Below, one piece after another: positions 1 to 54,862 of a stretch of 64,000 bases of DNA; the first letter of the stretch is position 1; the number at the start of each line of letters is the position of its first letter. Source of the stretch: Lycium barbarum (lineage: Eukaryota; Streptophyta; Magnoliopsida; Solanales; Solanaceae). Under the pieces are notes generated by a model. It ran no database searches, had not been told where the DNA came from, and saw only the letters and a list, made by a program, of their open reading frames with translations. The stretch is from NCBI RefSeq assembly GCF_019175385.1, contig NC_083344.1, forward strand, positions 59,086,782-59,150,781. Reading direction: 5' to 3'. The translations under genes were made by a program, and so were the position numbers.

Positions 1-2753
1 TCAAGTTCTTGTGGGAATATTACCAAGTGCAAAGCCCTCTACAAGTTGGTATAAGTATTTTGGCAAGAAAGCAATTCTATCCTCCAAGTGAAGAACTTGA
101 AGAAAGGTGAGGATTTAATGCTTTTGTTATGTTATAAATGGTATATGTATGTTGTAGTATGTGTGAATGAATGAAAAACATGGAAATTTTGTGTGTGGAA
201 AGATATGCATGTTGGCCGAATATATGTATATGTATTACATGTCTTGGGTGATTTGAATTCATGTTGTAATTTAGTTGTAGTGTGGTGGAAATTGTATTAG
301 AAATGGAAGTGGAATGAATTAGTGAAAATTGAAGAATGTAGGAGGTGGCCGTGTGGTATGGTCATGTGTTGATGGAGTATGAATTTGATCTTGTTTGTAT
401 ATTAAGTATGTTATGGTGAAGTGAATGGAAAAGATAACAATCTTTATTGTTTTGGAAAAATGGTTATCAAGTTGTTGTAGGAAAGTATGCAACTTTGTTA
501 TGATTTATGTAAAAATGGAAATGAATGTATCAAGAAGCAAATTATGATTATTGTTGAGGAATTTGGAAGATGGAAATGTATAATGAACTTGTATGTTGAA
601 GGTTAGGAAAAATTGGAAAAGTAATGGCTTAATGGAAAGTTTGAATGTTTGCATATCTTATGAATATTGTGTGAAAATGGTATGGATGCCTCCGATGTAT
701 GTTGTAATGATTTTGATGGATGATGAATATGAAAATAACAAGTTTGGTTTGGAAATGTAAGTTGGAAACGAAACATGTTTCGTTATGTCGAAAGGATGGC
801 TAGTGATGCCATATCGTATGTTTAATGCATATTGTTGTTATTGATGATATTTCTGGGTTGTTGTGATGATGAATTGAGTCGAGCTAAGTCTCGGGGATGT
901 CTTATATACAGAGGAAATGCTGCCGAAATTTCGGTAGGCAAGTCTGTGTTAAGTTGAATTATTGAAAAGTTTGAAACTAACCAAATGGTAAACTTGACCA
1001 TTTCCAGATTTTGGACGAAATTTGGATTGACGCCAAGCGAGCATAAGGCGCCATCGAGGTATGTGAAGCCTTTCCCTTTGTTCTTAGGCATGTTCTGGAT
1101 GTGATAGGCTCGGCCGCGAGCCTTAAGTACGACTCCGTTCCCCGGAATTCGAGACGGAAAACCGCTCCAATTCCTTCAATTCATTTGAAGCTATTTTCTT
1201 GCAAATTGCCTTTAAAGTGAGTTTTTGTACAAAACCTCCCTAAACGGAGTCGGAACACTTCCAAACGATTATGGATGACCTCATAAGGTCTATTAGCGAT
1301 AATTTACATATGTTGCCTCGAGTTGGTCCGAGGCGGGCCCACAAGGCCCGATATCTTCTGTAATACTTTAAATACTTCCCTTTTGTCCGATTTTCTCAGA
1401 AAACAATTGAACTATTATTTTGATTATGATACAACTATTTTTATGCAATTCTTACAAAAATGATTTCTGAACATTTGAGAATCTGATTCTGCTAATAATC
1501 TGTCGTGCCTTCCCAAGTAGGATATAGGCACGTACTATGCATACTATCTGGATATTCTGATTTTGGCTCGCCGTTTGGCACCCTACAGTTTGATTGAGTC
1601 TGTATGTTGAGTCTGTATGTAAGTAGTTTCTCATTTATCGATTCGTGTCTGTCTCAATGCATTCTTTCACTGCGACCCGGGCCAGGTTCTGTTATCGTGC
1701 ATATTTCTCTGCATTGTTCACCGCGTCCCTCGGCGTACGGGCCGGGATCTGTATGTCTGTATGATATTATGATTCGTGTATGGGGATGGCGGCCAGGATG
1801 GCATATGATCTGATCTGATTCTGTCTGTCCACCGCGTCCCGTACTAAGAGGGCCGGGTTCTGTTACCGCGCCCCCAGACAGGGCCGGGATCTGTATGAAT
1901 GTATGCGTGTGCCATCTGTATTTATATAAGCACATGCCTCTGTATGATTCTGCATGACTCTGTACTACTCTGCATGCATAATTCTGTCCGACATACTTCT
2001 GTCTGTCCGTCTGAATTACGACTATGTCTGTATGTCCGTATGGATTCTGATTCTGCTCATCTGTCCGTATTATGATTCTGTCTGTCTGTCCGAACCATGA
2101 TTCTGTTTATCTGTAAAGAACACGTTTCTGTATGTCTGTCTGGATCATGACTCTGTCCGTCAGTCTGATTTATGGTTCTGTTCGTTATATTTCTGTGACT
2201 CCGGTTCGGACTATGTTTATATCTATTATGTTCTGCTTTACATACTCGGTACATTTTTCGTACTGACCCCCGTTCTTCGGGGGCTGCGCTACATGCCCGC
2301 AGGTACCGACGCACCAGGTGATACGCCGCCAGCGTAGGTTTCTGATTCAGCTGTTTTGAAGAGCTCCTTTGATCCGGAGCGTATATTTTTGGTATATATC
2401 TCCTGTCTTCTGTATACTCTGTATGTATGGATTTTCTAGGTATGGCGGGGCCCTGTCCCGTCATATGATTCTGTATGTCTGTAGAGGCCTGTAGATAGAT
2501 GTGTGGATTACGGGTTTTCGTCTGTATGTTAGCCTTATCGGCTTATCTGTAAATGTCTGTATGTTCAGGTATATATATATATATATATATATATATGTTT
2601 GCGCGCGTGCCATAATTGTATCGGCCTACTTTTGTAACTTCTGTTTTAAAAAAAGAAAAAACAAATTCCGTATGATTCGAAATTCGGTCGGGTAGGTATG
2701 TACGGGCACCCAGTTAGGGTACCAGTCGCGGCCCACGGGGTTGGGTCGTGACA
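1..2753 (+). mobile_element. LTR A, 3' part (Tekay-type, same subfamily as C, I and J)
   Basis: Long terminal repeat running off the left edge. It ends with the family terminus TCGTGACA at 2753 and abuts the pol tail of element B, so A inserted into B. Landmarks match LTRs I and J: donor-like AAG/GTGAGG near 106, CCATTTCCAG followed by a 51-nt exon-like segment 1008-1058 and then GTATGTG, the conserved CAGTAC/GTACTG and CCCCC/GGGGG block near 2233-2306, and a (TA)n tract at 2569-2596. By alignment with I about 450 bp of the LTR lie upstream of the window. It could be a solo LTR or the 3' LTR of a full element; the left flank is needed to tell. No coding sequence is present. Confidence 0.85.
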
Positions 2754-3564: not shown

Positions 3565-5195
3565 TGTTATATCCCGTATTTTTGTGCGTTGGATTATTCG
3601 TAAGTTAATCGACATGAGTTCAAGGACAAGATTATTTTTGAGATATGAGACAAGGACGTTTTAATCCCGATTTTAACAAGTGCACAATTTGCTAATTAAT
3701 TACAATTAGTGTGGAAATATTAGTGAAGATTAGGGATTAATTAATAGCCATGATTATATTATTAAGTGGGGATTTATAATTAATTAAGTCAATTAGAGTG
3801 CTAAATGGACCCCACTACAACATGACCAAATCTGATTGGTCCATGCTATAGTGGGACATGTGTCAACATGGTAGGCAGCATATAAAGTCATAAGTGATGA
3901 CTAATATTAGTCATACACTTCATTTCCATTTCCAATTCAATTGAAAGAGAGGAGCTCATAGCCATGGCAGCTCACGAATAAGCTCAAAGCTTTGAAGGAA
4001 GAAAAATTAAATCCCAAGGTGCTTTACGTGTTCAAGGAGGCAGCAACATAAGGATATTGAGCTGAGGAAGAAGAAGCGGTGTAATTGGTGCAAGTGATTA
4101 TAGGATCTGTCCTAATTAAATTAAGGTAAGATTTTCTCTTCCTTATGGTGTAATTGGAGTAGATGGTGTTGTAATTGAGAGATTAACTCTTATTAAGTGG
4201 AATTGGATGCAAGGAATTGTACACGTTAGTGTTAAGGTTCTGTTTGGACCGTGTTGGAGTTGTTCTAATTTAATAATGATGGATTAAGTTTGATTAGTGT
4301 TGTTGTTATTGTTGTATTTTGTTTGAAGGTAATTTGTTTATGTTGAAGGGTTGGAAATATAGTAATAGATATGTATGGGTGCTGTTATTCATAGTAATAT
4401 TATACTCTTTTCAATGTGTTTGTGATTTTGCGAAGTAAAGGTCGAAGATTGTATTTCGATATTGTAGTTTCGATGGACTGTTTAGAGCTTGATATTGAAA
4501 TGATATTGAAGTAATTTTATTGTACATGGATGGTAGTTGATGTTGTTGTTGATATGGCTCATAAATTTGGAGGAAAACAAGTGTATAAGGTATCGTATAC
4601 GAAGCGTAAGTTGGTCTGTTTGGTGTAGAATCTTAGATGTTAATGATTTGAATTGAAAAAGGATTAAGAGAGGTTATTGAGTTGTTATCGTTGTTGTTGG
4701 TATTGTTGTGCTAATTGGAGATTTATTGGAAGTTCGGGTTAGGCGAATTATATAGAGGAAATGCAGCCCGATTTTCGTTAAGTTCTTAACTAATTAAAAT
4801 ACGAATCAAGAAGTATGAACTAAGCAATGATTTCCATAAGTGATTGGTTGTAGATTTATTAGTTTGGAAGGTCGTAGTTTATTAACATTAGTGTTACTCT
4901 CATATTAATAGGCTAAAGGGGCGACGAAGCAAGCTTGGTTACGGTTGATCTATAACAGGTATGTGAAGCTATCCTTTCCTTCTTTTTGGCATGATCTTTA
5001 TAAAACAAACAGACGACGAGCATATAACTCCAAAGAAGCTCCTATTCTTAGATACACTAGGATGGCTAATGTTCTTGATTCCCAGAACCTACACTCGGTT
5101 TGGTGATCCTCCAGCTTAGGACTTCTGCTCAGCTGTTTGGGGAGCTCCATTGTTCCGGAGCCTAGACTATTTTGGTACAGATCTTTTGATATAAA
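3565..5195 (+). mobile_element. Element E 5' LTR, left segment, with internal deletion
   Basis: Starts TGTTATATCCCG. TATAAA at 3881, donor-like AAG/GTAAGA with GT at 4126, and a 47-nt exon-like segment 4912-4958 between ATTAATAG and GTATGTG. Compared with the 3' LTR it lacks about 601 bp (equivalent to 40635-41235): the junction near 5092 joins ...CCTAC to ACTCGG with 2 bp of microhomology. The missing part includes the conserved hairpin block and minisatellite. Ends ATAAA, the altered copy of D's target site ATAGA. Confidence 0.85.
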
Positions 5196-6341: not shown

Positions 6342-6664
6342 TGTTATGTCCCGTATTTTCGTATAACGGGAAATCAAGAAATAAATGAGACTTGTGTGTG
6401 TTGAGGAAATATTTTGATTCAAGTTGCTATGCTCATGTTGATTATGAAATCATTGACGTCAAGACCTCGGGGAAGGCCGAGGGTGAATTTGGAATTTCGG
6501 AAGTTTGTTTCGGGAATTACAAAATGGGACTTTTAATGAATTGGGCCAAGAAAAAAAATTAGAACACAAAATGAGGCCCAAGGTTAGTGGGTTGGCCGTC
6601 CAATTTAGAGGCCCAAACCCATTTTTAAATGTCATGTGCTATGCACATGACACTTAGTAATGGA

Positions 6665-6901
6665 TATATATCATGAATACTTGATAATTATCAAGAAAAT
6701 AAATCAAAAATTCAAGAACACAAGGAGAGAGGGGTTTCGGCCACTATAGAAAAAAAAAGAAAGAAAATTTCCAAGCTTGATTGTTGATCCAAAAATCTCA
6801 AGTTTTACATAGTTGTGAAGTACTCAAGACGCTCTCCGACGTGATACAAGTAGTTTGGAGAAAGAGCGACGTTTGCGACAAGTCGGAAATTCAAGAAAAC
6901 G
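6665..6901 (+). promoter_or_regulatory. Element C: TATA box and predicted leader exon 1
   Basis: TATATA at 6665-6670 is followed, at the usual spacing, by an A-rich tract typical of plant transcript leaders, which from about 6700 to 6901 has no ATG. It ends at ACG/GTAAGATC (GT at 6902). The 3' LTR copy reads AAG/GTAAGATC, the better consensus. TATA and donor recur in LTRs B, D, E, F, I, J and L. Transcription start and splicing are inferred. Confidence 0.55.
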
Positions 6902-7674
6902 GTAAGATCTTTATGTTTTAATGCTATGAAATGGATACATATGTGTTAGTGATTGAATTGGCATGAAGATTTTGGAATGGTGTTGTGTTTGTGCATGGCG
7001 TGTGTGTGCAAAAAGAGTGTGTTTGGCCGTGGGTTTTATAAGGTTTAAGGCATAAGAATTTGATCTTATTTAGCTTGAATGATGTGTTGTTGTGGTCATT
7101 ATGTTGTAAAGGATTGATTAAGGAATTGAGTTGGTGTTAGAAAATAATTTCGGACGTTATCGGAAAGTGTATACCTTTGGTATATTTGTGTATATCATAG
7201 TATATATATGATACTAAAGACTTTAAATATGATTTATGGTTGATGATAATGAGTTTGGAATGAAACGACGCAAGTTAGAACGTTCGTCGTAATTTTTGGT
7301 GTTTTGAATAAAAATTGGAAAGTAGTGAACTTTGGGGATGTTTGTATGTGGTTTGGAACTTGTTTGTTATGTAATGGAATAATCTTGAATGAATGAATAC
7401 AATAATGTGGATGTGAGTTGAAATTGTGAAGTTTGGAAATAGGATTACCAACTTATGAAATAAGGTGCAATTGTGAAGTTAGTGTGTTTGATTGTGATTC
7501 GTATTGTGTAATGATGTTTGGGCTGTTGATGTTATTATATTTTGAGCCGAGCTAAGTCTCGGGGGTGTTAGATTTATAGGGGAAGTGCTGCCGAAATTTC
7601 GGTAGCCAAATATAGCCCAAGGACTAAAATGTTAATTCTCATGAATAGTAACTGGTAAAAGTGACCATTTGCAG

Positions 7675-7725
7675 TTTCTGGACGAAACGGGAATTGCGAT
7701 TTGAGGAGCGTAAGGCGCCAACCAG
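7675..7725 (+). other. Element C: predicted 51-nt leader mini-exon inside the 5' LTR
   Basis: Segment bounded by CCATTTGCAG on the left and AG/GTTTGTAAAG on the right, with no ATG. The 3' LTR copy (13810-13860) has the stronger donor AG/GTATGTAAAG. Equivalents are 51-52 nt in A, F, I and J, 54 nt in B, D, L and M, and 47 nt in E and H, although the exon sequences of these groups differ. Conserved boundaries with diverged content suggest selection on splicing. Confidence 0.55.
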
Positions 7726-8740
7726 GTTTGTAAAGCCTACCTATCATTCTTTTGGCATGTCCTAGTCCTACTAGGTTAATATCGGAACCTCGGGAATAAT
7801 CCTACTCTTGGAAATCGAGGTTCAAGTTCGAGCACTATTCACTCAGCGCGATTGAACCCTCTTTGTCACCTTTGGTTAAAAGAATGTTCGTACCTCCATA
7901 ACTTGTGCTGTTGTGTCCGAAACTCTTCGAAACTTTTGTAGATGGCTCTATGGAGCCGAAAGTCTGTGATTTGTGTCCGCCACCTCAATTTGACTCGAGG
8001 TGGGCCCGCGAGCCCCGAGGCTCCCCTTATTCGGTTTGTTTGATTCATTTGTGTCCGTTATGATCCGCAACCGTCTGTTTAGGACCCAAGGATGTGTTTG
8101 AAACTTTCTATGCCATTAATGTACGTTCTGTACTTGAATGATGTGAGATTTTCGGAAAATGACTTATGAACAGTTTTCTTGCGAATTTGGCAGTTTGGAA
8201 CTTCGTAACTTTTATACGCATACTTTGATCAGTCTGATTCCTACTCCGATCCTTCGGGCGTCAGTATATACCTCTACGTAAACTATATGTTAAGTCCGAC
8301 AAATTATTTTTGATATGCATATGATTTCTGCACTACTCTGTTCGTGCTGCCTGCTATGACTTCGTTCGTCGGTACCCGGGCCGACTTTGTGATCATGCGC
8401 ACTATAATATATTCGGGAGTTATGATGTGTTACGGTTTCCGAGGCCTCGCCATAGGGCTGGTTACCGTTTATGGAGTTATGATGTGATATGGCATTTGAT
8501 ACGTTCTGATGATATGATATGTGTGTGATAAGATGTGTCTGGAGATTGTACGGAGATTTGAAACCTTCTGGAGTTATGATGTGTTGTGGCACCAGCGTCG
8601 GGGGGTGACCACGTTCCTAAACCCTACACATGATTTGATTTGCATTTGTACGTTCGCCTCCCGCACAGGTTTGCTTTGTTGCGATGTTGGTGTGTTTGTT
8701 CTTTCTGACTCTAGCTGTGTTTGTGATTTCTGTACCTTCT

Positions 8741-8813
8741 GCTTTACATACTCAGTACTCCTCCCGTACTGACCCCCGTTTCTTCGGGGGCTGTGTTTCA
8801 TGCCCGCAGGTAC
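8741..8813 (+). promoter_or_regulatory. Conserved LTR block with two inverted repeats (copy in C 5' LTR)
   Basis: TTTACATA, then CAGTAC...GTACTG, then CCCCC and TTCGGGGG, then TGCCCGCAGGTACAG. The same block occurs in nearly every LTR of the window (near 2233, 14876, 16731, 27799, 35891, 41159, 43157, 46686, 54194, 56658 and 61998 on +, and 19784 and 32936 on the minus strand), and is the most conserved stretch between subfamilies. It may be a second promoter core or a 3'-end signal; the sequence alone does not decide. Confidence 0.6.
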
Positions 8814-9395
8814 AGAAGCTCGTTTGGGTGGTCCTCCAGTTTAGGCTACTCACTCTGCTGTGTTGGAGAGCTCCCTTTTGATCCGGAGCCTACTTTTGGT
8901 ACATATCTTTTGTTGTGTCTGTATTCTGTATATTTGGATGAGTGGGTATGGCGGGGCCCTGTCCCGTCCTATGTTCTTATGTTCTGTTTTGTTTAGAGGC
9001 CTGTAGTCAGATTTGTGGGTCGTGGGTCCGGTGTGTTTGCATGTGAGTCTGTTTTACGATCTTAAGCGGCCCGTACGCTACTATGGCCAAGTCGGCCTCT
9101 GAGTCTGTATGTATGTGTATGCATTTGGGGGCGATGTGCATTCCGCCACCCTTCTGATGTGTGTGTGTGAAATTTGGCGATGTACATTCCGCTTCCTTTC
9201 TGATTTGTGATTTGTCTGATCTGTACGGGCGACTGCTTAGGATAAGTGTTCGGTAGATGTCTGATTACGATGTTGAGTTCGAATAACGTACGTTGAGTTT
9301 GGGCGAGTCGGATTACGATGGTCTGGGTGTGAGTTCGTTTGGGGTGTCCCAGAAGGACACCAGTCGCGGCCCACGGGGCTGGGTCGTGACAAAAG

Positions 9396-9407
9396 TGGTA
9401 TCAGAGC
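9396..9407 (+). promoter_or_regulatory. Element C primer binding site (initiator tRNA-Met type)
   Basis: TGGTATCAGAGC lies four bases (AAAG) after the LTR end. It is the common plant LTR-retrotransposon site complementary to the 3' end of initiator tRNA-Met, from which minus-strand DNA synthesis starts. Confidence 0.93.
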
Positions 9408-9450
9408 GGTTTGTCCTCGGAATGTCTACAGGCCGTGTCTAGTAGAGTCT

Positions 9451-9486
9451 TGTTTATCGATGTGTTGTGCACCACATCTATAAACA
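9451..9486 (+). other. Element C leader hairpin with palindromic GTGCAC loop (candidate dimerisation signal)
   Basis: Outer stem TGTTTAT/ATAAACA, 2-nt internal loop, inner stem ATGTG/CACAT, and apical loop TTGTGCAC containing the self-complementary GTGCAC. It lies between primer site and gag. Six elements carry it at 36 nt, and most changes among them keep pairing through G-U wobbles. The layout resembles the kissing-loop dimer initiation sites of retroviruses; function is inferred. Confidence 0.6.
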
Positions 9487-9601
9487 GGGAGCTACAGGAC
9501 ATCTAGGATGTTGTGTTGCCTTTTCTTTGGAATCTTAGATCGTGCGATAGAGCTGTGTTATTAGGGTCATTCTGATCTGACCCGTTGTTGTGTTTGCAGT
9601 G

Positions 9602-11068
9602 ATGCCTCCGAAGATGGCAACGGCGGCCCAAAAGGGCAAGGCGAAGGTGGGAGAGACCAGTCAGGCACAACGGGCTACTCGGGCTCGTGTTTATGATTTG
9701 CCTGAGGTTACACCTCATTCTGAGGGGTCTGCTACACCCCCATTAGTACAGCCTGGAGCGGGACCTTCAGCAGCTCCAGAGGTCCGTGTACCCGCTCCTG
9801 AGATTCCTCAGCCAGGGGCGGAGGATAGGACCCTGCGGGAGGCTGTACAGTTGTTGACCACGATTGTAGCCGGCCAGGCTCGCAGACGCGGGCGGAGGGA
9901 CGATGATGATGAGGACAGGCGGGAAAACCTGAGAGTTCGGGAGTTCTTGTTATGCGGCCCTCCAGAGTTTTTCGGGTCTAAGCCCGACGAGGACCCCCAT
10001 GACTTCATTCGGGGGATGCGGCGTGCATTAGACTTGGTCAGGGCGTCAGAGACCGAGTCGGTTGAGCTAGCTTCGCATAGACTTCGGGACGTTGCCGCGC
10101 ATTGGTATGAGACTTGGGAGCTATCCCGGGGTGAGGGTGCTCCTCCAGCTATGTGGGATCAGTTTGTGACTGCTTTCACCCGCCACTTCCTGCCCCCAGA
10201 GTTACGACGGGAGCGAGCTGATCGGTTTTTGCATCTGCAGCAGAGGGGTCGGAGCGTCCGTGAATATAATTTGGAGTTCGATTCCCTGGCCCGGTATGCC
10301 CCTGCCGTGGTGGCAGATATGACAGATCGGATGCATAGATATGTTATGGGGCTGGATCGTTACTTGATTGACGGGTGTATGGAGGTGTCATTGCAGACAG
10401 ATATGGACATTGCCCGTCTACAGGCCTACGCCCAGGGGATGGAGAATCGGCACCGAGCAGATCGGCCCAGCCGAGAGTATGATGGGAGACGGCCCAAGAG
10501 GGCCAGATCAGCGGGGTATTCTGGAGATTCTCGGAGCGGGCAGCCGCAGTATCAGTCCAGCGGGCACTTTCCGCCGTCAGGCCGGGACACACAGTCTATT
10601 GGTAAGAGGTTTGATGGAGCAGGACCGTCCAGGGCAGACCAGAGTTCCAGAGCCCCAGGTCCTCAGTCGAGCAGGGGTCCCAGTCAGTCTAGGCCACCCA
10701 TACCCCAGTGTTCGTATTGCGGAAGATCGCACCCAGGGGAGTGCTTCAGGGCCACGGGGGCCTGTTTTGCTTGCGGCCGCCAGGGCCATATCATGCGGGA
10801 TTGTCCGTGGGCAGGCGGTTCCGGCAGCGCAGCACCGCCGATGAGATCCGTTGCTGGTTCGTCATCTACCCCTTCGGCCACGCGCTCTACGGGGCGAGGT
10901 ATGCCAGCACCAGCGGGCCGCGGTAGAGGCCGTGGTGGGGCTTCAGATTCTAGCGGTCCCTCGAACCGCATCTATGCTCTGACTGGTCGTCGGGACCCAG
11001 AGGCACCCCCAGACGCAGACCCAGGTATATTACTAACCTTTTTGTTTAATGAAAATGTGCAATGGTAG
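9602..11068 (+). CDS. gag: Gag polyprotein of element C, intact, with novel C-terminus
   Basis: Structural capsid-nucleocapsid protein of 488 residues. I start it at the ATG at 9602 (MPPKMATAAQ), because F, I and J begin at the same place and an AG acceptor-like site lies 2 nt upstream; an in-frame ATG at 9590 is less likely. Order: basic N-terminus, Pro/Ala-rich linker to about residue 80, capsid-like retrotransposon gag domain about 115-250 (HWYETWELS, RSVREYNLEFDSLARY), Arg/Ser/Gln-rich linker, knuckle-like CSYCGRSHPGEC from residue 370 and classical CCHC knuckle CFACGRQGHIMRDC from 388. Homology to gag-pol stops near 11037, just before the protease, after which the frame closes at 11066-11068. 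Intact while pol is gone, so it may act in cis packaging of its own RNA. Confidence 0.93.
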   Translation: MPPKMATAAQKGKAKVGETSQAQRATRARVYDLPEVTPHSEGSATPPLVQPGAGPSAAPEVRVPAPEIPQPGAEDRTLREAVQLLTTIVAGQARRRGRRDDDDEDRRENLRVREFLLCGPPEFFGSKPDEDPHDFIRGMRRALDLVRASETESVELASHRLRDVAAHWYETWELSRGEGAPPAMWDQFVTAFTRHFLPPELRRERADRFLHLQQRGRSVREYNLEFDSLARYAPAVVADMTDRMHRYVMGLDRYLIDGCMEVSLQTDMDIARLQAYAQGMENRHRADRPSREYDGRRPKRARSAGYSGDSRSGQPQYQSSGHFPPSGRDTQSIGKRFDGAGPSRADQSSRAPGPQSSRGPSQSRPPIPQCSYCGRSHPGECFRATGACFACGRQGHIMRDCPWAGGSGSAAPPMRSVAGSSSTPSATRSTGRGMPAPAGRGRGRGGASDSSGPSNRIYALTGRRDPEAPPDADPGILLTFLFNENVQW

Positions 11069-12370: not shown

Positions 12371-12397
12371 ATCAATAAAGGACAACTATCAAAAGAA

Positions 12398-12476: not shown

Positions 12477-15400
12477 TGTTATGTCCCGTATTTTCGTATA
12501 ACGGGAAATCAAGAAATAAATGAGACTTGTGTGTGTTGAGGAAATATTTTGATTCAAGTTGCTATGCTCATGTTGATTATGAAATCATTGACGTCAAGAC
12601 CTCGGGGAAGGCCGAGGGTGAATTTGGAATTTCGGAAATTTGTTTCGGGAATTACAAAACGGGACTTTTAATGAATTGGGCCAAGAAAAAAAATTAGAAC
12701 ACAAAATGAGGCCCAAGGTTAGTGGGTTGGCCGTCCAATTTAGAGGCCCAAACCCATTTTTAAATGTCATGTGCTATGCACATGACACTTAGTAATGGAT
12801 ATATATCATGAACACTTGATAATTATCAAGAAAATAAATCAAAAATTCAAGAACACAAGGAGAGAGGGGTTTCGGCCACTATAGAAAAAAAAAGAAAGAA
12901 AATTTCCAAGCTTGATTGTTGATCCAAAAATCTCAAGTTTTACATAGTTGTGAAGTACTCAAGACGCTCTCCGACGTGATACAAGTAGTTTGGAGAAAGA
13001 GCGACGTTTGCGACAAGTCGGAAATTCAAGAAAAAGGTAAGATCTTTATGTTTTAATGCTATGAAATGGATACATATGTGTTAGTGATTGAATTGGCATG
13101 AAGATTTTGGAATGGTGTTGTGTTTGTGCATGGCGTGTGTGTGCAAAAAGAGTGTGTTTGGCCGTGGGTTTTATAAGGTTTAAGGCATAAGAATTTGATC
13201 TTATTTAGCTTGAATGATGTGTTGTTGTGGTCATTATGTTGTAAAGGATTGATTAAGGAATTGAGTTGGTGTTAGAAAATAATTTCGGACGTTATCGGAA
13301 AGTGTATACCTTTGGTATATTTGTGTATATCATAGTATATATATGATACTAAAGACTTTAAATATGATTTATGGTTGATGATAATGAGTTTGGAATGAAA
13401 CGACGCAAGTTAGAACGTTCGTCGTAATTTTTGGTGTTTTGAATAAAAATTGGAAAGTAGTGAACTTTGGGGATGTTTGTATGTGGTTTGGAACTTGTTT
13501 GTTATGTAATGGAATAATCTTGAATGAATGAATACAATAATGTGGATGTGAGTTGAAATTGTGAAGTTTGGAAATAGGATTACCAACTTATGAAATAAGG
13601 TGCAATTGTGAAGTTAGTGTGTTTGATTGTGATTCGTATTGTGTAATGATGTTTGGGCTGTTGATGTTATTATATTTTGAGCCGAGCTAAGTCTCGGGGG
13701 TGTTAGATTTATAGGGGAAGTGCTGCCGAAATTTCGGTAGCCAAATATAGCCCAAGGACTAAAATGTTAATTCTCATGAATAGTAACTGGTAAAAGTGAC
13801 CATTTGCAGTTTCTGGACGAAACGGGAATTGCGATTTGAAGAGCGTAAGGCGCCAACCAGGTATGTAAAGCCTACCTATCATTCTTTTGGCATGTCCTAG
13901 TCCTACTAGGTTAATATCGGAACCTCGGGAATAATCCTACTCTTGGAAATCGAGGTTCAAGTTCGAGCACTATTCACTCAGCGCGATTGAACCCTCTTTG
14001 TCACCTTTGGTTAAAAGAATGTTCGTACCTCCATAACTTGTGATGTTGTGTCCGAAACTCTTCGAAACTTTTGTAGATGGCTCTATGGAGCCGAAAGTCT
14101 GTGATTTGTGTCCGCCACCTCAATTTGACTCGAGGTGGGCCCGCGAGCCCCGAGGCTCCCCTTATTCGGTTTGTTTGATTCATTTGTGTCCGTTATGATC
14201 CGCAACCGTCTGTTTAGGACCCAAGGATGTGTTTGAAACTTTCTATGCCATTAATGTACGTTCTGTACTTGAATGATGTGAGATTTTCGGAAAATGACTT
14301 ATGAACAGTTTTCTTGCGAATTTGGCAGTTTGGAACTTCGTAACTTTTATACGCATACTTTGATCAGTCTGATTCCTACTCCGATCCTTCGGGCGTCAGT
14401 ATATACCTCTACGTAAACTATATGTTAAGTCCGACAAATTATTTTTGATATGCATATGATTTCGGCACTACTCTGTTCGTGCTGCCTGCTATGACTTCGT
14501 TCGTCGGTACCCGGGCCGACTTTGTGATCGTGCGCACTATAATATATTCGGGAGTTATGATGTGTTACGGTTTCCGAGGCCTCGCCATAGGGCTGGTTAC
14601 CGTTTATGGAGTTATGATGTGATATGGCATTTGATACGTTCTGATGATATGATGTGTGTGTGATAAGATGTGTCTGGAGATTGTACGGAGATTTGAAACC
14701 TTCTGGAGTTTTGATGTGTTGTGGCACCAGCGTCGGGGGGTGACCACGTTCCTAAACCCTACACATGATTTGATTTGCATTTGTACGTTCGCCTCCCGCA
14801 CAGGTTTGCTTTGTTGCGATGTTGGTGTGTTTGTTCTTTCTGACTCTAGCTGTGTTTGTGATTTCTGTACCTTCTGCTTTACATACTCAGTACTCCTCCC
14901 GTACTGACCCCCGTTTCTTCGGGGGCTGTGTTTCATGCCCGCAGGTACAGAAGCTCGTTTGGGTGGTCCTCCAGTTTAGGCTACTCACTCTGCTGTGTTG
15001 GAGAGCTCCCTTTTGATCCGGAGCCTACTTTTGGTACATATCTTTTGTTGTGTCTGTATTTTGTATATTTGGATGAGTGGGTACGGCGGGGCCCTGTCCC
15101 GTCCTATGTTCTTATGTTCTGTTTTGTTTAGAGGCCTGTAGTCATATTTGTGGGTCGTGGGTCCGGTGTGTTTGCATGTGAGTCTGTTTTACGATCTTAA
15201 GCTGCCCGTACGCTACTATGGCCAAGTCGGCCTCTGAGTCTGTATGTATGTGTATGCATTTGGGGGCGATGTGCATTCCGCCACCCTTCTGATGTGTGTG
15301 TGTGAAATTTGGCGATGTACATTCCGCTTCCTTTCTGATTTGTGATTTGTCTGATCTGTACGGGCGACTGCTTAGGATAAGTGTTCGGTAGATGTCTGAT

Positions 15401-15526: not shown

Positions 15527-16374
15527 ATGTTGGTTGGGCTGTTATAGGGTAGTTTAGATGAAAATGTTATGACTATGGATCATTAAGAATAACTTGAATA
15601 TGTCGTAGTTGTATGTGGATTATTATCAAATGTTGTAAACGTGGACTATTTGGGATGTTGTGCGGGCTGTTCGGAGTGTTCTCGAGTATTGTCTTGAATA
15701 GCCTCGATATGGTACTTGAGCGTGTGGTTATTGATGTTGTCTTAGTCATTGTGTAGTTGGTTGGAATATAAGGGAAACGTCGTCTAATTTCTAGAAAGGA
15801 GTTACTAACGTTAGAATACGTTTTGAATCTCCCCGTAGCTTAACCATAGTTCTTGACGTCTTAATATAGGTTGAGACACTACTGGGCAGCGTATGCGTGT
15901 TGTGTTGCGAATAAGCGCTAAAGGTATGTAAAGCCTATCCGTTCTTTATTTTGGCATGTCTTAGACGTAAGTGATGAATGATATAAGCTTTGGGATAATT
16001 CCATTCATAAGTTCCGAATATGATTCATGATTCTTATTTACTTCTTGATGTTAGAACTTTTAAAGCAGTTAAGCTACTGCCCTCGAGCTTTCTATATGTT
16101 GGATAGTATAATCGGATGTATAAGTATCTATTCCTAAAGGCTCTATAATTACTAATGACTCTGACTTCATAAGTTATTTCACATTATTTCGATACATGTC
16201 TATGATTCCTGAGGCTCCCTTTGATATAGTTCATAATGATATTTAAAGAGTACTTAACATGACTATCGCTTGGACACTCGAATGTTAGCTAGTCTACTTG
16301 TCTATCGAGTCTCAGATGATGATTTAATTGCACGTGGATACTCACTACTCTACTCGTGCATACTATTGTTACGT

Positions 16375-19309: not shown

Positions 19310-22300
19310 TGTCACGACCCAACTCCGTAGGCCGTGACTAAGTACCCGAACTGGGCACTCGTATACACACTCTTTGGCTATATGTTCAGTTCACAACAAA
19401 CACAATATGGAATTTATAACGACCAAACCATGGTCTCGGAACTGTCGCATAAATATACATATAACTGCAAGCCGACAAGGCTGCTACCACAACATAATAA
19501 TATCTGCAAGCCGGCGAGGCTGCTACCACGATAGAATACGCATACTGATAATACACACACAACTGATCACATCTCAATACGACCCACATACATGTCCACA
19601 GACCTCTAAGAGTTTCAACAGTGAAATATGACGGGATAGGGCCCCGTCGTACCCTTAAGAAACATATGCATATATTTAGATAAAAAAGGATCTATACCAA
19701 AGTCTGGGCTCCAGAACAACGGAACTCTTCAAGATAGCAGAAGGGAAGTCTTAAGCTGGCAGTTCACCAAAACGCGTATCTGTACCTGCGGGTATGAAAC
19801 GCAGCCCCCCGAAGAAAGGGGGTCAGTACGGAATATGTACCGAGCATGTAAAGCTTGAAGTACAGTAAAAGGATCATAACTGAAATATGGAGTACAGTAA
19901 ATGTGCACAATATCCAGAATACCAAAACACTTGCCTTTGTAACATAATCATACTTGTCAATATCATATATCGTATGCATATATATATCGTACTCGGCCAT
20001 TTAATGAGGGACTCGGTGAATAAGATCATCATATGCCCTCCTGGCCACCATGACATGTCATCATATCATTATATCATCATATGGTCATATCGTCATATCA
20101 TCATATCATCATATACATATATACCGTACCCGACCCGGTGAACAATGCAGTGAAACTGTGCACGATAACATACCCGGCCCGGGACTCAGTGAAAGATATA
20201 TTGAGGTATGCACGAGCAGAGTAGTGAGAAACCATATGCAATTCAAAACGTTTTTAAGGACTCAATAGAATAGTCAACACGAACCACCATTCGCAAATTC
20301 AATAATAGTCATATCATTTACCTTTCGGATGTCCCTGTGGATTATATCAAAATGGAACTTTGAAATCATATGTACATATCAAAATGTATATATAAAATGT
20401 AAGTTATGAGAATCAAGATCATTAGCCATCCTAGTGGTTCTAGGAATAGGAATTCCTTTGGAATCGTATATATATATCGTATATTCATTTCACAACGATC
20501 ATGCCAAAAAGAAAGAAGGGTTAGCTTCACATACCTTTAGCGCTTATTTGTCACACAATATGTATACGCTGCCCAATAATACTTCAACCTATATTAAGAT
20601 GCCAACAACTACGGTTAAGCTACGGGGAGATTCAAAACGTATTCTAACGTTAGTAACTCCTTTCTAGATGTTTAGACGATGGTTTCTCTTGTAGCCAAAC
20701 AAACTACATACAACCAATCCCACATCAATAATTATACGTTCAATACCAATCCAGACAGCCCACACAACATTCCAAACAACCCACATTCACAACATTCAAT
20801 AACGATTCACATTCGGCTACTACATTCTCAAGTTATTCCTAATAGTTCGTAGCCTTAATGTTTGCATGTAACAACTTTATAACAGCCCATTCAAAATACA
20901 TCACAATGCATAATCTTAATTATCATTAGTTTTTCCAACTTAACAAAAACAACAACATGTCCAAAACAATCCCTAACCAACAACATAAAGAAGCTCGGAA
21001 TTCTTGCAAACGTTTATGAACATATTAAGAAAACCACATACGATTATTACACATTATTTCATGTCTTCTTTTCATATAATTTCAGTGAATTATTACCAGA
21101 AACCACACGACATGTACGTCATCAATTCATACGCAACTAAGCTACATCGTCATCACTATAATCCTTACAACAACCCACAAACGAATTTAGTTCCAACTCC
21201 AACAATCAAACACATTCATTTCCATCATAAAATTCATGACAACAACAATCAAAATATCAACTAAAATCAGTTCATTATCTTCCACACAAAACAGTCCCTA
21301 CATGGTTTCAACATGCTTCAACATCACACACAAAAGTTCATGGATTCAATTTATATTCATACTAACACAACTTCACCTTTAACCTTCCAATCCTTTCCAT
21401 TCTTTTTACCATGCAATCTATGATAGCATAAAACATAATTACTAAAGAAAATCAGTCCACCATTGCCACTAAAACAGTCCCTATGGCCACATTAACATTC
21501 CAACACCAACATTCATGATTTCATGCATGCAATTCATGTTCACCAAGTTACAACCATACTTCAACATCAACACATATAACTCCATGGCTACTATCATGTT
21601 CCAACATCAACACACATCATTTCATGCATACAACTTATATTTACACATCTATATCACCCTTAATACATGCAAAACAAAGTTAGATCTTACCTTGACAATT
21701 CGACTTCTCAACTTGGCTAGAGTTTGTGAATTGGAATGATAATGGTTCTTGTTGCTCCAATGACTATCTTCACGTTTCTAGGGACCTTCTAAAGGGTTTA
21801 AATGCTTGAAGAAATTATTTTTTGATCAACACTCAAAGAGCTCCAATTCAGCCACTTTGGCCGACAGTTTCTCTCTCCCTCTCTAGGTTTTCTATTTTGG
21901 TGTTGTGAAGTTGAAATGAGAAGATGATCTCTCTTAGTCATCCATTTGATTAAACTAATATGCCTACAAGTTGTACACATGCTCCACTCATGACATTGAT
22001 CCACTCAATTAACTTTGCATTTAATTTCATTTTCTTTCTCCCTCACTTTCGGCTACATGTTGGCCGAGCCTCCCTTGTCTCTCCTTTCCTTTTAATTGTT
22101 TACAATGTAATTGCATGTGTAGTGGATGAATCATACACTAACCTTTATCATTTGCAATCATACAAGGATGAATTGGCAATATTTAAATGTGCAATGATTC
22201 TTCCAACATGTATGCCTTCATAGAATAATGCATACCTTCATAAAATAATGGATGCCTTCAATATTTAAATGCATGCCTCACCTTTTTCTCTCCATAATTT

Positions 22301-22659: not shown

Positions 22660-22664
22660 ACTTT

Positions 22665-32690: not shown

Positions 32691-33821
32691 GGGAATATCC
32701 ATAGCAAACCATATAGACACAGCTGAGCAAAACTTACACACAACCCACACATATGTCTACAGACCTCTAAGAGTATCGATAGTGAAATATGACGGGACAG
32801 GGCCCCGCCGTACCCCTGGATAAACATACATATACATCATAAGATCTATACCAAAAGTCTAGGCTCTGGAACAGTGGAGCTCTCCAAGACAGCTGAGTAG
32901 AAGTCCTAAGCTGGAGAGTTACCAAACCGACTATCTGTACCTGCGGGCATGAAACGCAGCCCCCCGAAGAAAGGTGGTCAGTACGAGATATGTACTGTGT
33001 ATATAAAGCATCAAATAAAATAAAGAGGATCATCACTGAAATAGAGATTACCGGAGACAAGTATGTCAATCAAAGATACCATTACACTTGCCTTATGAAA
33101 TGTAAATCTTGCATATCACTATCATATATCATACCCGGCCCATTATGGGACTCGGTGAATAAAGTCATCATATGTCATCCTTGGCGCCATAATCACATCA
33201 TCATATTATCATATCATCACATCATCATATCATCATATGATCATATATATATATACCGTATCCCGGCCCTCTAGTGAGGGACTCGGTGAACAATGTAGTG
33301 AAACTGTGCACGAAAACGTATCCTGGACCGGGACTCAGTGAAAGATATATTGAGGCATGCACGAGCAAAGTAGTGAGCAACCATATGCAAAGTAAATAAT
33401 ATCTGAGATTCAATAGAATAATCAAAATGAATCATCATTTGAAAATCAAGACAATAGTCATATCAAGTACTCTTCGAATGTCACTATGGATTATATCAAA
33501 ATAGAACGTCTGGAAACATAGACACATATCAGAACATAATAATATAAGTTCTGGGAATCAAGAACATTAGCCATCCTAGTGGCTCTAAGAATAGAAGTTT
33601 CTCTAAAGTCAGATACTCATCGTCTATTTGTTCATAAAGATCATGCCAAAAAACAAGGGTTAGCTTCACATACCTTTCAACTTCCTATTCCATAACAATG
33701 CTAAGTTCAATCCATCGTATGTTCATCTACAACAAGGAAGATGGTACTAATATCGTATTTGGTGTCGTGCTATCGTAATTTGAGTAATAAAACTATTCTA
33801 TGGGAAAACGAGCAACACCAC

Positions 33822-35649
33822 TTTTATACCCCGTATTTTTTTGCACGTCGGATTATTCGTAAGCTAATCGACGTAAGCTTAAGGACGAGATTATTTTTGG
33901 GATATGAGACAAGGGCTTTTAAATCCCTGATTTTTAATGAATGCACGATTACTTGCAAATTTAATTGCTGTAGAAATATCAGTGGGGATTAGGGATCAAT
34001 TAACCATGATTATATTATTAAGTGGGGATTAATGATTAATTAAGCTAATTAGACCACTAAGCGGGCCCCACAACACGTGGCAGACTTTGATTGGAGATTA
34101 ATTGAGTGGGACACGTGTCAAAATGGTGGACACGTGTCCCATGAAGGGGCTGCCTATATAAGGCCGTTGATGACTCATAAGCCACCTTTCAATTACTATT
34201 CATTTCAAATTCACTTTGAATTAGAGAGAAATAAGTGAACTAAGCTAGAGGGGGAAAGAGAGTTCGGCCATGGCTATGGCATAGGCACATGATGAACTCA
34301 CGGCCAGCCATGGCAGCCACATGATGAACTCACGGCCAGCACCCCCTACTCTATTAAATTTTTATATTTTCAAGTTCAATTGGAAGAAGAAAGGGGAGAG
34401 GAAGCTCATGGCCATGATGGGTAATGAGAGATTGTCTCTAAGGTAAGATTTAACCCTTTTCTTGATGTTTTGGAGATGGTTTGAACTTGCTATAATTGTT
34501 GATGGATATGGAATTGAATGCAAAAATTGTGTATGTTGATGTTGAGACTTTGTTAGGCCGTGTAGGGCTGTTTTAATCTAGCCATGATAAATTAAATTTA
34601 ATTAGTATTGTTGTTGTGTTGTCATGGAGAAAATGATGAAAGTAAAGGGGTTTGATGATTAAAAATGGAGTTGTATTTGTTTAGTGGGTTGTTCTTGTTG
34701 AATTGAGGGATTAGGGGTTAAGATTATGTGTTGTGTTGTTGATCTTGTGAAATTGGAGGACTAAGTGTCATTAAGACTTGTGTTGTGTTGATTATAATTG
34801 ATGGGCTGCTTTAGGACTTGTTGTAATGTTAAGATAATTTTCTTGCGTATAAGGGCTGAAGCCGTTGTTATGTAGTGGCTAATGTGAATCACTAACTCAA
34901 TAATAAAGGAATGTATAAAATATCATATGTGAAACGTATGTGGGCTGTTTTAGAGTATCCTAGGATCTTGTTTCGACTGGTTCTTAATGCGATAACTTAA
35001 ACGTGCTTGGGTGGTTGCTATGTTGGTTGTATGGTTGGCATAAATGCGAGGAGATTGAGCGATATAGGTGAAGTGCTGCCTAATTGTCTGGAAATAAGTT
35101 ACTAACGTTAAAGTACGTTTTATTCCATTTTGTAGCTTAACTATAGTCTTGATGTCTTAATATAGGTTGAAATATTTTGGGCAACGTGTACATATCGAGT
35201 CATGGATTAAGCGCCAAAGGTATGTAAAGTTAACCCTTCTTTCTTTTTGGCATGATCTTTATGAAACGAACAAACGATGTGTATATGATTCCAAAGAAGT
35301 TCCTATTCCTAGAGCCACTAGGATGGCTAATGTTCTTGATTTCCAAAAGCTACTTCATTATGTCTTGATACGTGTATATGATTCCACAAGTGCTATTTGG
35401 ATATAATCCATAGTGATATTCGAAAGGTACTTGATATGACTATTGTCTTGATTTTCAAATGATAGTTCGTTTTGATTATTCTATTGAGTCTCAAATATGA
35501 TTTAATTTGCATATGGTTGCTCACTACTCTACTCGTGCATGCCTCAACATATCTTTCACTGAGTCCCGGGCCAGGATACGTTTTCGTGCACAGTTTCACG
35601 GCATTGTTCACCGAGTCCCTCACTAGAGGGCCGGGATACGGTATATATT

Positions 35650-44775: not shown

Positions 44776-45051
44776 TATAATATATGTGTATAGTAGATGA
44801 CTTATTAGTCATATTTATCATCATCTTCACACTTAGAAAATTCAAGAAACTTGGAGAAAAACAAAGAGAAGCCATTCGGCCATAGCATAGCCGAACAACC
44901 ATCTTGGAAAAATTTATCACAAATAAATATTTTCTTCTAGCAATTCAACCAATTGGAAGGTCCTCTTTAACGTGAGATAGTTGTTGGAGCAATTAAACCA
45001 CTCTTTGTTGCAAATTCATAACCCTAGCCAAGTGAGAAGTGTGGTGAAAAG
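44776..45051 (+). promoter_or_regulatory. Element F: TATA box and predicted leader exon 1
   Basis: TATAATATAT followed by an A-rich leader (AAAACAAAGAGAAGCC) that lacks ATG from about 44822 to the donor AAAAG/GTAAGG. Same architecture as C, I and J in a diverged LTR. Confidence 0.5.
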
Positions 45052-45813: not shown

Positions 45814-45864
45814 ATCTTGGGGAGCTCGAGACTTGAGTTGGGATTGGCTTAGGAAGCAGACGAG
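45814..45864 (+). other. Element F: predicted 51-nt leader mini-exon
   Basis: Bounded by TTATTATAG and AG/GTATGTAAAG, no ATG. Same length as in A and C although the sequence is largely different. Confidence 0.52.
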
Positions 45865-47150
45865 GTATGTAAAGCTTACCCTTTCCTTCTTTTGGCATGT
45901 CCTAGTTGCAAGTAAGCTATGAAACGAGTCTCGGGGTAACTCCATTCATAAGATCCGAGCATGTCGACGATTTTTATTCACTTCTTGGTGTTAGTATTCC
46001 TAATATAGTCGAACTATGGTTTTTGTGGCTTTTGTATGAGTGGATAATAAATATGTGTAAAAGATTTTTATTCCTAACAGCTTTATGTCGAAAAATGTCC
46101 GTAACTTTCATAGACGAGCTCGGATCGCTCCGATACGTTCCTAGAGGATCCTAAAGCGAACAATGTCCATAACTTTCTTATACTAACTCGGATTGACTCG
46201 AAACGTGTTTATGATTTTCAAGCGTCGACTAGTGTATGTATCTATTGAGTCTTAAAAATTGTTTTATATGCATATAGTTTCTCACTACTCTGCTCGTACA
46301 TACTGTTTTTATATCTTTCGCCGAGTCCTGGGCCGGTTTTGTCATCGTGCGCACTATGTTATATTCGGCAGTATGATGTGTTACGGTTCGCCGAGCCACT
46401 CACTAGAGGGCCGGGTACCGCTTATATACGGCGTTATGATGTGTTATGGCGTATGATGTCCTATGATGTTATGATGTGTTTCGGGGTTATACGGAGATAT
46501 GAAATCTTCTGGAGTATGATGTGTTGTGGCGCCAACGTCGGAGTGGCGACCACGTTCCTGAGCCCTATGCATGATTTTTTTATATGCATTATTTGTGTTT
46601 CAAAAACAATCTTTTGGTATACTGATTTCTGTACTCGTGTTCCATACTTCTTGTTTCAGTTATGATCTTGATTATTGTATTTCATGCTTTATATACTCAG
46701 TACATATTTCGTACTGACCCCCTTTCTTCGGGGGCTGCGTTTCATGCCCGCAGGTACAGACGCTCATTGTGGTAATCCGCCAGCCTAGGATACCCATTCT
46801 GCTACTTTGGAGTGCTCCCTTGATCCGGAGCCCATACTTTTGGTACAGATCTTTTTGTTGTACATATTTATGTGTATATGACTATTTAGGGGTACGGCGG
46901 GGCCCTGTCCCGTCATATGCTTCTGTTGTTATTCTTAGAGGCCTGTAGTCATGTATGTGGGTCATGGTTCGTTATTGTTAAGTTGTGTCTGTGTGATTTG
47001 CGTCTTAACCGGTTCCATTTGCTGTGACAGCCTTAACGGCTTGTATGTATGTATATGTTTTGGGCGATGTGTTTTACGACAGCCTTGCCGGCTTCTATGT
47101 GATACATTTGTTATATGTGACCGCTTAAGACGACATGTCTATTAAAGTCT

Positions 47151-47186: not shown

Positions 47187-47294
47187 GGAAGCTACAGGAC
47201 ATTTAGGATGTCACCTTTCCTTCGATCTTAGATCGTGCGATAGAGCTGTACTATTAGGATGGTTCCTTTCTAACAGATTGTTATGTTTACAGTG

Positions 47295-48738
47295 ATGCCT
47301 TCGAAGAAAGCGACAGCTGCCCAGAAGGGCAAAAAAGTAGCAGGAGAGACCAGTCAGACTCGGAGAGTTACTCGGGCCCATGCCCAGACTATGCCCGAGT
47401 TTATGCCCCAGTCAGCGGGCTCTATTACGCCGCCGTCATCAGTGGAGCCTAGAGCAGCAGCCGCTGCAGCTATGAATCAGGGGGCGGCTCCACCATTAGC
47501 TCCAGAGGCTCCAGCGCCCGAGCCTCCAGCTCCTCAGCCAGGGGCGGAGGATAGGGCGATGAGGGATGCCGTACAGTTGCTGACTAGATTAGTAGCAGGG
47601 CAGGCTCACAGACGCGGGCTAGGGGGTGATGATGTGGATAGACATGACAGCTTAAGGGTTCGTGACTTCTTGACTTGTAATCCCCAGAGTTCTACGGGTC
47701 AAAGCCCGAGGAGGATCCCCAGGATTTTATTCGATAGATGCAGCGTACGCTAAGGTTAGTCAGAGCTTCTGAGACCGAATATGTCGAGCTGGCTTCATAT
47801 CGGTTGCGTGATGTAGCCGTTAATTGGTATGAGTCCTGGGAGATGTCTAGAGGCGAGGGTGCTCCTCCAGTGGTGTGGGATGAGTTTACAGCAGCCTTTC
47901 TCGGCCATTTTCTGCCTCCAGAGATGCGGCGAGCGAGGGTTGACAGATTCTTACAGTTGAGACAGAGGGGCAGAAGTGTTCGAGAGTATAGCCTAGAGTT
48001 TGACTCTCTGGCCTGATATGCGCCCACCATTGTAGCTGATATGGCTGACAGGAAGCATCGGTACGTGATGGGGTTGGATCGTTATTTGGGTGATAGCTGT
48101 ATGGTGGTGGCATCTCTGCCCGGGATGGATATTGCTCGAGTGCAGGCATATGCACGAGGAATGGAGGACCGACACAGAGGGCGTCAGCCCGATAGAGATC
48201 GTGATAGAGGTCAGCCCAAGAGGGCTAGATCAGCTGGTTATTCTGGGGAGTTTCGAGGCGGGCAGCCTCAGCAGCAGTATAGCAAATATCTTTCTCAGCC
48301 AGGCCAGAGTACACATCCTCAGTCCACGGGTAGACGATTCGATGGTGCAGGGCACTCAAGAGCAGGCCAGAGTTCCAGGGCTTCGGGTTCGCAGGTGAGC
48401 AGAGGTTCCAGTCAGTCAAGGCCACCTATGCCTCGGTGTTCTCATTATGGGAGATCTCACCCAGGGGAGTGTTATCGTGCTACGGGAGCCTATTTTTCTT
48501 GTGGTCGTCAAGGCCATCTTATGAGAGATTTCCCGTTGGCAAGTAGTTCCGGTGGTTCAGCTCAGCCTACAGGGTCAGTTGCTGGTTCGTCTTCCACTTC
48601 TGTAGCTATGCGCCCTATGGGGCGGGGTATGCCGACATCAGCAGGCCGCGGCAGAGGTCGGGGTGGAGTTTCTGATTCTAGCGGTCCCTCGAACCGCATA
48701 TATGCCTTGGCCAGCCGACAGGATCAGGAGGTGTCACC
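47295..48738 (+). pseudogene. gag: Element F gag, broken
   Basis: Gag of the same family as C, starting MPSKKATAAQKGKK at 47295, 2 nt after a TTTACAG acceptor-like site. A one-base loss near 47685 shifts frame, a TAG stands at 47735 and a TGA (CGA in relatives) at 48014. The N-terminal linker is longer and richer in Ala/Pro than in C. The capsid-like domain is recognisable (VNWYESWEMSRGEGAPP, RSVREYSLEFDSLA). In the nucleocapsid the CCHC knuckle reads YFSCGRQGHLMRDF, missing first and last Cys, and the upstream CSHYGRSHPGEC has lost one Cys. Non-functional. Confidence 0.9.
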
Positions 48739-54624: not shown

Positions 54625-54862
54625 TATATATCAACAATAACACTTAGAATTATCAAGAACAAAACAAAATTCAAGAAAGCACCTCAAAATACCTCTCGGC
54701 CGAATAGGAGAAAGGAAAGAAAAATAATTCCCAAGCCTTTGTGTTGTGATCCAAAAATCTTGATTTTTGCATAGTTGTGAAGTACTCAAGACCCTCTTCA
54801 ACGGGGTACAATTAGTTTGGCGTAAGGTGCGCGTTTGCGACAAGTCGGGTTTTCAAGAAAAG
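54625..54862 (+). promoter_or_regulatory. Element I: TATA box and predicted leader exon 1
   Basis: TATATA followed by an A-rich leader with no ATG up to the donor AAAAG/GTGAGA (GT at 54863). Confidence 0.52.

Follow-up and report, generated by a model that had tools for sequence, protein, structure and literature searches.

How is gag translated from retroelements whose unspliced leaders place 78–82 ATGs ahead of its start codon? The question is raised by a 64,000-nt stretch of Lycium barbarum DNA (NC_083344.1, positions 59,086,782 to 59,150,781 of the forward strand; hereafter the window), which self-comparison, profile and protein searches showed to consist mostly of nested Ty3/gypsy elements with long terminal repeats (LTRs) of ~3 kb. 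A sequence-only reading of the window had proposed that these LTRs carry a three-exon spliced leader for gag. We find it probable that LTR exons are spliced in cis to form the gag leader and that the end of gag is joined to an exon of the 3′ LTR, which would yield a Gag-only mRNA; gag would probably gain a short extra tail from the LTR exon.

Predicted leader exons of the gag-bearing elements lack ATG

A protein search found gag in four elements, C, I, J and k; the I and k copies are damaged and J leaves the window. (LTR letters, namely a, b, c, d, C 5′ and 3′, e–k, p, I and J, were assigned anew and differ from those of the earlier reading; C5 and C3 denote the two LTRs of C.) In C, I and J, transcription would start near a TATA box found ~325 nt into the 5′ LTR. 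Exon 1, A-rich and free of ATG (~205–240 nt), would be spliced to a mini-exon of 47–54 nt, and the latter to an acceptor exactly 2 nt ahead of the gag ATG. As the earlier reading had it, this acceptor is TTTGCAG in C, I and J and TTTACAG in k; branch-like CTGAC, TTGAC, CTGAC and CTAAC lie upstream of it in C, I, J and k, respectively. The sites of the proposed junctions, 6901/7675 and 7725/9600 in C, 54862/55646 and 55697/57441 in I, and 60208/60986 and 61037/62763 in J, are all present. The predicted introns of the four elements measure 762–783 nt and 1428–1874 nt, in agreement with the ~0.8 kb and 1.4–1.9 kb first proposed.

The predicted spliced leaders of C, I, J and k (259, 262, 260 and 295 nt) contain no ATG, whereas the unspliced leaders (2906, 2788, 2762 and 2485 nt) contain 81, 82, 78 and 81, respectively, a contrast already noted in the earlier reading; the 5′ ends used here are assumed to lie ~30 nt past the TATA box and, in k, right after the last ATG. 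The longest ATG-free gap in the 5′ part of the LTR covered the exon-1 donor in 7 of 12 LTRs (C5, I, J, k, c, i and e), exon 1 of C being that gap (rank 1 of 46). An ATG-free exon 1 was clear in C, I, J, k and e and partial in c and i. Against dinucleotide shuffles of the 200 nt before the donor, the ATG deficit had P values of 0.006 in k (0 ATG versus 3.4 expected), 0.012 in c, 0.12 in i and 0.04 in e. P was 0.5–1.0 in b, d, f, h and p, and these LTRs rule out a general ATG deficit of exon 1. The presence of ATGs in exon 1 of the d/f family, in which gag was unmatched, fits a relaxed constraint, in this one family.

Exon-1 donors were found, as claimed, with two corrections: they begin ~526–626 nt into the LTR in the ten LTRs of known start, not at the 500–560 given as usual, and the expected AG/GTAAGA (the slash marks the splice boundary) occurs as AAG/GTAAGA in the 3′ LTR of C while its 5′ LTR has ACG/GTAAGA. 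Sites were ranked with weights that only approximate plant values. The donors of exon 1 and of the mini-exon (C, I, J and k) and of gag (C, I and k) took ranks 1–4 among 262–365 GTs. Among 240–292 AGs, the gag acceptors of C, I, J and k ranked 1, 3, 9 and 2, respectively, and the mini-exon acceptors of I and J ranked 2 and 1. The T fraction was 0.20–0.27 in the predicted exons versus 0.34–0.41 in the introns of all four elements, and it climbed from 0.20–0.29 to 0.37–0.44 over the exon-1 donor (200 nt per side) in 12 of 12 LTRs, with a sharp step in C and k (percentile 0.986). Plant introns are generally U-richer than exons, according to the account cited (PMC3735527).

A predicted mini-exon diverges between fixed boundaries

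At the same site of 15 LTR copies, a [CT]AG acceptor and an AG/GT donor enclose a segment of 51 nt (C5, C3, a and k), 52 nt (I and J), 53 nt (g), 54 nt (d, f, e, h and j) or 47 nt (c, i and p). The constant size attributed to it therefore holds within subfamilies but not across all copies. Its donor, described as AG/GTATGT, is GTATG in 14 of the 15 copies, including GTATGT in the 3′ LTR of C, but GTTTGT in the 5′ LTR of C.

Mean identity over the 66 pairs of 12 representative copies was 0.56 inside the mini-exon versus 0.49 in the shuffled null, compared with 0.61 in the preceding 30 nt and 0.76 in the 46 nt from the donor on. Related pairs were more alike inside the segment (for example, h–j, 0.84). 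Distant ones had identities of 0.45 (i–I), 0.40 (J–e) and 0.45 (f–p), at a null of ~0.49, with their boundaries kept, which bears out the earlier statement that the sequence diverges while the boundaries hold. A regular expression for an acceptor, 47–61 nt and a donor returned 14 rows for the window; the homologous LTR site, read in LTR sense, accounted for 11 of these. In 40 first-order Markov sequences of window length the mean was 2.0 and the maximum 6. The window count treats homologous copies as separate though they are not independent. These simulations, taken together with the conserved boundaries, rule out a chance consensus match as the source of the mini-exon.

A predicted third LTR acceptor leads into a short open frame

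The most conserved LTR block, TACTGACCCCC...GGGGGCTG...CATGCCCGCAG/GT, is a third acceptor, absent from the earlier scheme, that opens a short reading frame. In the phase of the gag donor this frame reads, for instance, TEARLGGPPV-stop, TDTRFGDPPA-stop or ADIGDPPL-stop. Of 12 distinct LTRs, nine keep it intact; it stops early in d and f and falls two codons short in h. LTRs c and p, whose blocks (at 5072 and 54195, respectively) are damaged, were not among these 12. Six tails of equal length showed 26, 42 and 59 differences at the three codon positions (42, 69 and 98 with a seventh), whereas the 30 nt past the stop of the same six showed 52, 53 and 66. We regard this pattern as a weak to moderate coding signal.

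Two small hairpins are possible at 8766–8812 and in the homologous stretches, past a branch-like CTGAC and with the acceptor CAG in a stem. In five copies their z values were only −0.8 to −1.8 versus shuffles, and we do not claim a regulatory structure at this acceptor.

Some gene models of gag relatives join at predicted sites

NCBI models of gag relatives from Lycium and Solanum often finish in short non-protease tails. Of 33 proteins classed as short or other, 16 were left out because they were apparently unspliced, cut off or jumping into longer other sequence, and the remaining 17 tails were compared with the 3385 AG sites of the window that have a stop within 14 codons; five further proteins of this class lay outside the comparison. 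The third LTR acceptor was the best match of seven tails (P0001, P0003, P0005, P0006, P0012, P0013 and P0036), among which the P0036 tail is identical to that of LTR a; the mini-exon acceptor of I or k was the best match of three (P0030, P0015 and P0029). For each of these ten tails, eight from L. barbarum and two from Solanum dulcamara, the match scored higher than at any other AG in the window or in any of 20 simulated windows, which rules out chance as the source of the matches. All ten models join at the gag end, where C, I and k have the predicted donors CAG/GTATAT, CAG/GTACAT and CAG/GTATTC, respectively (Table 1). The three-exon leader scheme was incomplete: there is a third LTR acceptor, and the LTR exons resemble the 3′ end of gag as well.

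In a tobacco model (Nicotiana tabacum, P0070; LOC107794937 isoform X2), gag forms an internal exon inside an alpha/beta hydrolase, whose flanks we take to be normally joined directly. Its joints, I/V-M (G/TG ATG) and VVTG/HGG, coincide with both predicted gag boundaries. Residues before the gag start read [AS]-x-M in 8 of the 11 relatives that have any, which, judged from residues and not codons, is compatible with a YAG 2 nt upstream of the ATG. Two of the predicted leader sites are used by NCBI models: the three proteins named above have the mini-exon acceptor, and P0070 has the acceptor 2 nt ahead of the gag ATG. Two gag-containing Capsicum models (P0164 and P0177) were set aside, as their junctions lie off the predicted sites.

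Elements of the window

The elements are Ty3/gypsy LTR retrotransposons, as seen from the LTR pair, target duplication and primer binding site of C and from the domain order of k; these hallmarks are spread over the copies, and no single one has the full set. Element C is flanked by a 5-bp duplication, ATGTT (6337–6341 and 15527–15531). Its LTRs differ at 15 of 3051 compared positions, and two of the differences hit donors (6900 and 7728 in the 5′ LTR, 13035 and 13863 in the 3′ LTR). Element C (6342–15526) has gag alone, with reverse transcriptase (RT) and integrase unmatched, and resembles TR-GAG elements. The primer site TGGTATCAGAGC accompanies the ~3-kb LTRs of the window's Ty3/gypsy elements.

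Element k encodes protease, RT, RNaseH and integrase core, in this order, at 48041–51557; at 47102–47136 it is without the 3′ end of its 5′ LTR and without a primer site. Its match to Pfam Chromo (E 4.6e-5, 23.7 bits) is under the cut-off of 25.1, and PF00385 is listed for the relatives P0084, P0111 and P0114. The nearest gag proteins came from L. barbarum, S. dulcamara and Nicotiana, among the 7984–7993 candidates with most shared words that were scored per protein search. The elements may be chromoviruses of the Tekay/Del clade, a lead taken from their long LTRs and gag type.

The internal region of the d/f family (17.4–24.2 kb; 17385–24270 after LTR d) had no match to gag, protease or RT in the protein search. 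Integrase alone was found after LTR d (24271–24842), as in a non-autonomous family or a replaced interior. Within predicted intron 2, LTRs d, f, j and p contain tandem arrays of ~46–86 bp units with CACCGAGTCCC...GGGCCGGGTA (16424–16621, 27490–27687, 42914–43042 and 53866–54080). One protein of this plant element family, P0109, has been deposited as Corynebacterium sp. MC-13, from a 2.2-kb contig, and is probably plant contamination. The window gave no Rfam match at gathering score and no tRNA in a scan with bacterial settings. In viral_contigs, two stretches fitted a peptide pattern but neither encodes a relative, and a 23-base pattern had no exact match in viral_contigs or genome_contigs.

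Table 1. Predicted exons and other features of the window, with the basis of each assignment
Feature	Position	Strand	Basis or remark
TATA-like box of C	6665..6672	+	sequence scan; homologues at 54625 (I) and 59970 (J)
Exon 1 of C, predicted, start assumed	6696..6901	+	0 ATG; donor GT at 6902, rank 4 of 365
Exon 1 of I, predicted	54655..54862	+	ATG-free; donor scoring
Exon 1 of J, predicted	60003..60208	+	ATG-free; donor scoring
Exon 1 of k, predicted	44810..45051	+	donor rank 1 of 317
Mini-exon (exon 2) of C 5′ LTR, predicted	7675..7725	+	common to 15 LTR copies; donor rank 2 of 365, acceptor rank 22 of 269
Mini-exon copy, C 3′ LTR	13810..13860	+	candidate acceptor for gag end; site comparison
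Mini-exon of I	55646..55697	+	gag phase DFGRNGT-stop; best match of P0030 and P0015 tails
Mini-exon of J	60986..61037	+	site comparison
Mini-exon of k	45814..45864	+	gag phase DLGELET-stop; best match of P0029 tail DFGELET
Mini-exon of LTR a	1008..1058	+	site comparison
Mini-exon of LTR c, 47 nt	4912..4958	+	close copy in i at 40454-40500
Mini-exon of LTR d, 54 nt	15870..15923	+	close copy in f at 26936-26989
Mini-exon of LTR e	20535..20588	-	regular expression and site comparison
Mini-exon of LTR g	33674..33726	-	LTR truncated there, less certain
Mini-exon of LTR h	35166..35219	+	related one in j at 42406-42459
Mini-exon of composite LTR p	53202..53248	+	site comparison
Gag exon of C, predicted	9600..11024	+	acceptor TTTGCAG (rank 1 of 269), 2 nt, ATG 9602; donor CAG/GTATAT, GT at 11025 (rank 1 of 365); Pfam Retrotrans_gag
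Gag exon of I, predicted	57441..58873	+	ATG 57443; donor CAG/GTACAT; copy frameshifted
Gag exon start of J, predicted	62763..64000	+	ATG 62765; leaves window
Gag exon of k, predicted	47293..48752	+	ATG 47295; donor CAG/GTATTC
Third acceptor and tail G-TEARLGGPPV-stop, C 5′ LTR	8810..8844	+	most conserved LTR block
Third acceptor and tail, C 3′ LTR	14945..14979	+	candidate last coding exon of gag
Third acceptor and tail G-ADIGDPPL-stop, I	56727..56755	+	best match of P0003 tail
Third acceptor and tail G-ADIGDPPQ-stop, J	62062..62090	+	conserved block, frame
Third acceptor and tail G-TDAHCGNPPA-stop, k	46754..46788	+	conserved block, frame
Third acceptor and tail G-TDAPGDTPPA-stop, LTR a	2303..2337	+	identical to end of Lycium barbarum P0036
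Element C 5′ LTR	6342..9391	+	self-comparison and end motifs
Element C 3′ LTR	12477-15526	+	self-comparison and end motifs
Primer binding site of C	9396..9407	+	profile search; inside predicted intron 2

Discussion

The predicted splice sites, their conservation, the absence of ATG from the leaders of the four gag-bearing elements and the occurrence of several of these sites in public gene models are direct observations. The earlier claim that introns are removed so that gag can be translated gains partial support from the strength of the sites, the low T content of the exons, the ATG-free leaders, the kept boundaries and the two leader sites found in NCBI models. Excision of intron 2 would take out the primer binding site and dozens of upstream ATGs along with the remainder of the LTR. 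The spliced mRNA could then be scanned and translated but not reverse-transcribed, and the introns would survive because removal of intron 2 takes the primer site with it. At the gag–protease boundary, the donor CAG/GTA would join an acceptor in the 3′ LTR, either the CTGAC...CATGCCCGCAG/GT site, which would add ~8–10 residues and a stop, or the mini-exon. The unspliced RNA would stay the genome and the Gag-Pol template. The start site, the splicing itself, the pairing of 5′ and 3′ junctions within a single RNA and the separate roles of the RNAs are inferred. In its fullest form, the LTR would be a two-ended exon cassette that supplies an ATG-free two-exon leader at the 5′ end and a coding last exon (a Gag tail of 8–10 residues) at the 3′ end, with only the unspliced RNA being copied; for this form we judge the balance to be even.

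It is unlikely, though conceivable, that the 3′ side alone is real, the gag end being spliced to the 3′ LTR while the leader is dealt with by a downstream start, shunting or internal entry. All ten matched tails do concern the gag-to-LTR junction, the outside models bear on other junctions and none on that of exon 1 with the mini-exon, and exon 1 contains ATGs in 5 of 12 LTRs; yet exon 1 and the mini-exon hold no ATG in any of the four gag-bearing elements, the exon-1 donors rank 1–4, and P0070 uses the gag acceptor 2 nt ahead of the ATG, a site without a purpose under such an arrangement. We give still less credence to the blocks being conserved regulatory or packaging motifs ~50 nt apart at which the gene models picked sites ab initio. 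Conservation reaching ~40 nt into the predicted intron, a third-acceptor block conserved far beyond the needs of a splice site and gene models that can be computed without RNA would suit such motifs, but not edges that are exactly [CT]AG and AG/GTATG, a frame open past the acceptor in 9 of 12 LTRs, related tails in two genera, or composition and ATG patterns that track the predicted exons in the gag-bearing elements. Recent common descent of the LTRs, with GT and AG merely inherited, is very improbable: close pairs exist (C5/C3, c/i and d/f), but descent alone is contradicted by distant mini-exons that are at shuffled-level identity with every boundary intact.

Several observations nevertheless weigh against splicing at both ends of gag. 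Five of 12 LTRs (b, d, f, h and p) are without an ATG-free exon 1, h having even an excess (11 ATGs versus 5.3 expected in the 200 nt before the donor), and the deficit in C5, I and J is not significant against dinucleotide shuffles (P 0.10, 0.06 and 0.15, respectively). Some sites are weak: among mini-exon acceptors, that of C ranks 22 of 269 and that of k 28 of 292, and the third acceptors of C, I, J and k rank 7, 17, 11 and 20 of 240–292 AGs. The homologue of the gag-exon acceptor is lost in f, the 5′ LTR of C holds an unusual base at both its exon-1 and its mini-exon donor, and the T step at the exon-1 donor is not sharp in I and J (percentiles 0.72 and 0.65). Seven of the 17 tails had no usable match among the 3385 AG sites, the tail of one, P0020, being three residues long and uninformative. 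The NCBI proteins are computed gene models and their agreement counts as such, and C, I and J are related and hence not independent cases. Finally, the model leaves unexplained the skipping of the third acceptor and of any poly(A) signal in the 5′ LTR.

If true, the two-ended cassette would explain how introns persist through reverse transcription and how Gag comes to exceed Pol, an excess that is poorly understood in plant Ty3/gypsy elements, short-Gag splicing having been described for Ty1/copia. It would also account for the length of the LTRs and the strong conservation of one LTR block, and Gag production could be tested directly with existing RNA data. Annotated gag genes with odd tails may then be spliced retroelement mRNAs, and a lone LTR would bring with it a promoter, splice donors and acceptors and a candidate terminal exon, all open to capture by host genes.

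Retroviruses have a donor near the 5′ LTR and keep an unspliced genome alongside spliced mRNA. Unlike the present elements, in which gag would need splicing and the primer site would be removed, they translate gag from the unspliced RNA. A trans-spliced leader of the trypanosome type, which comes from a separate gene, was rejected, as the two predicted leader exons are situated upstream of gag within a single LTR.

Plant LTR elements are generally intronless, with Ogre and EVADE as exceptions, according to the cited part of a review (PMC12786077), and Retrosat2 of rice, with LTRs of >3.2 kb, is described without introns in the passage cited (PMC3485330). Ogre, like our elements a plant Ty3/gypsy retrotransposon, has a partly spliced intron (PMC6317226, as far as cited). 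An Ogre-type intron between gag-pro and RT-RNaseH-integrase was not found here: in the relative P0002, gag, protease and the start of RT are uninterrupted, and in k the segments succeed one another within ~200 nt. Long reads from sunflower and triticale, in the parts of the reports cited, revealed spliced Gag RNAs, chiefly of Ty1/copia, and one intronless Ty3/gypsy case (PMC7730604, PMC7765848). TR-GAG elements (PMC7765848) resemble C, which has two LTRs and gag only; the cited section does not mention spliced LTR exons for them. The matches listed by searches of the open-access literature contained no description of LTR-borne exons in this clade, nor of the form of Ty3/gypsy short-Gag system that the two-ended cassette, if true, would represent.

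The closest parallels come from Ty1/copia. As in EVD/EVADE of Arabidopsis, a subgenomic Gag mRNA would depend on splicing, and there it is preferentially translated; the cited account couples EVD splicing to premature polyadenylation downstream of gag, whereas here the last exon would be in the 3′ LTR (PMC8892269). BARE1 of barley has a spliced Gag mRNA and separate RNA pools for translation and replication. It belongs to another superfamily, its 104-nt intron lies within the coding region, and neither LTR exons nor a mini-exon figure in the cited description. What the elements of the window would share with BARE1, here as a prediction, is a CAG/GTAT donor just past gag, a short tail, a stop and a Gag-only mRNA (PMC3735527).

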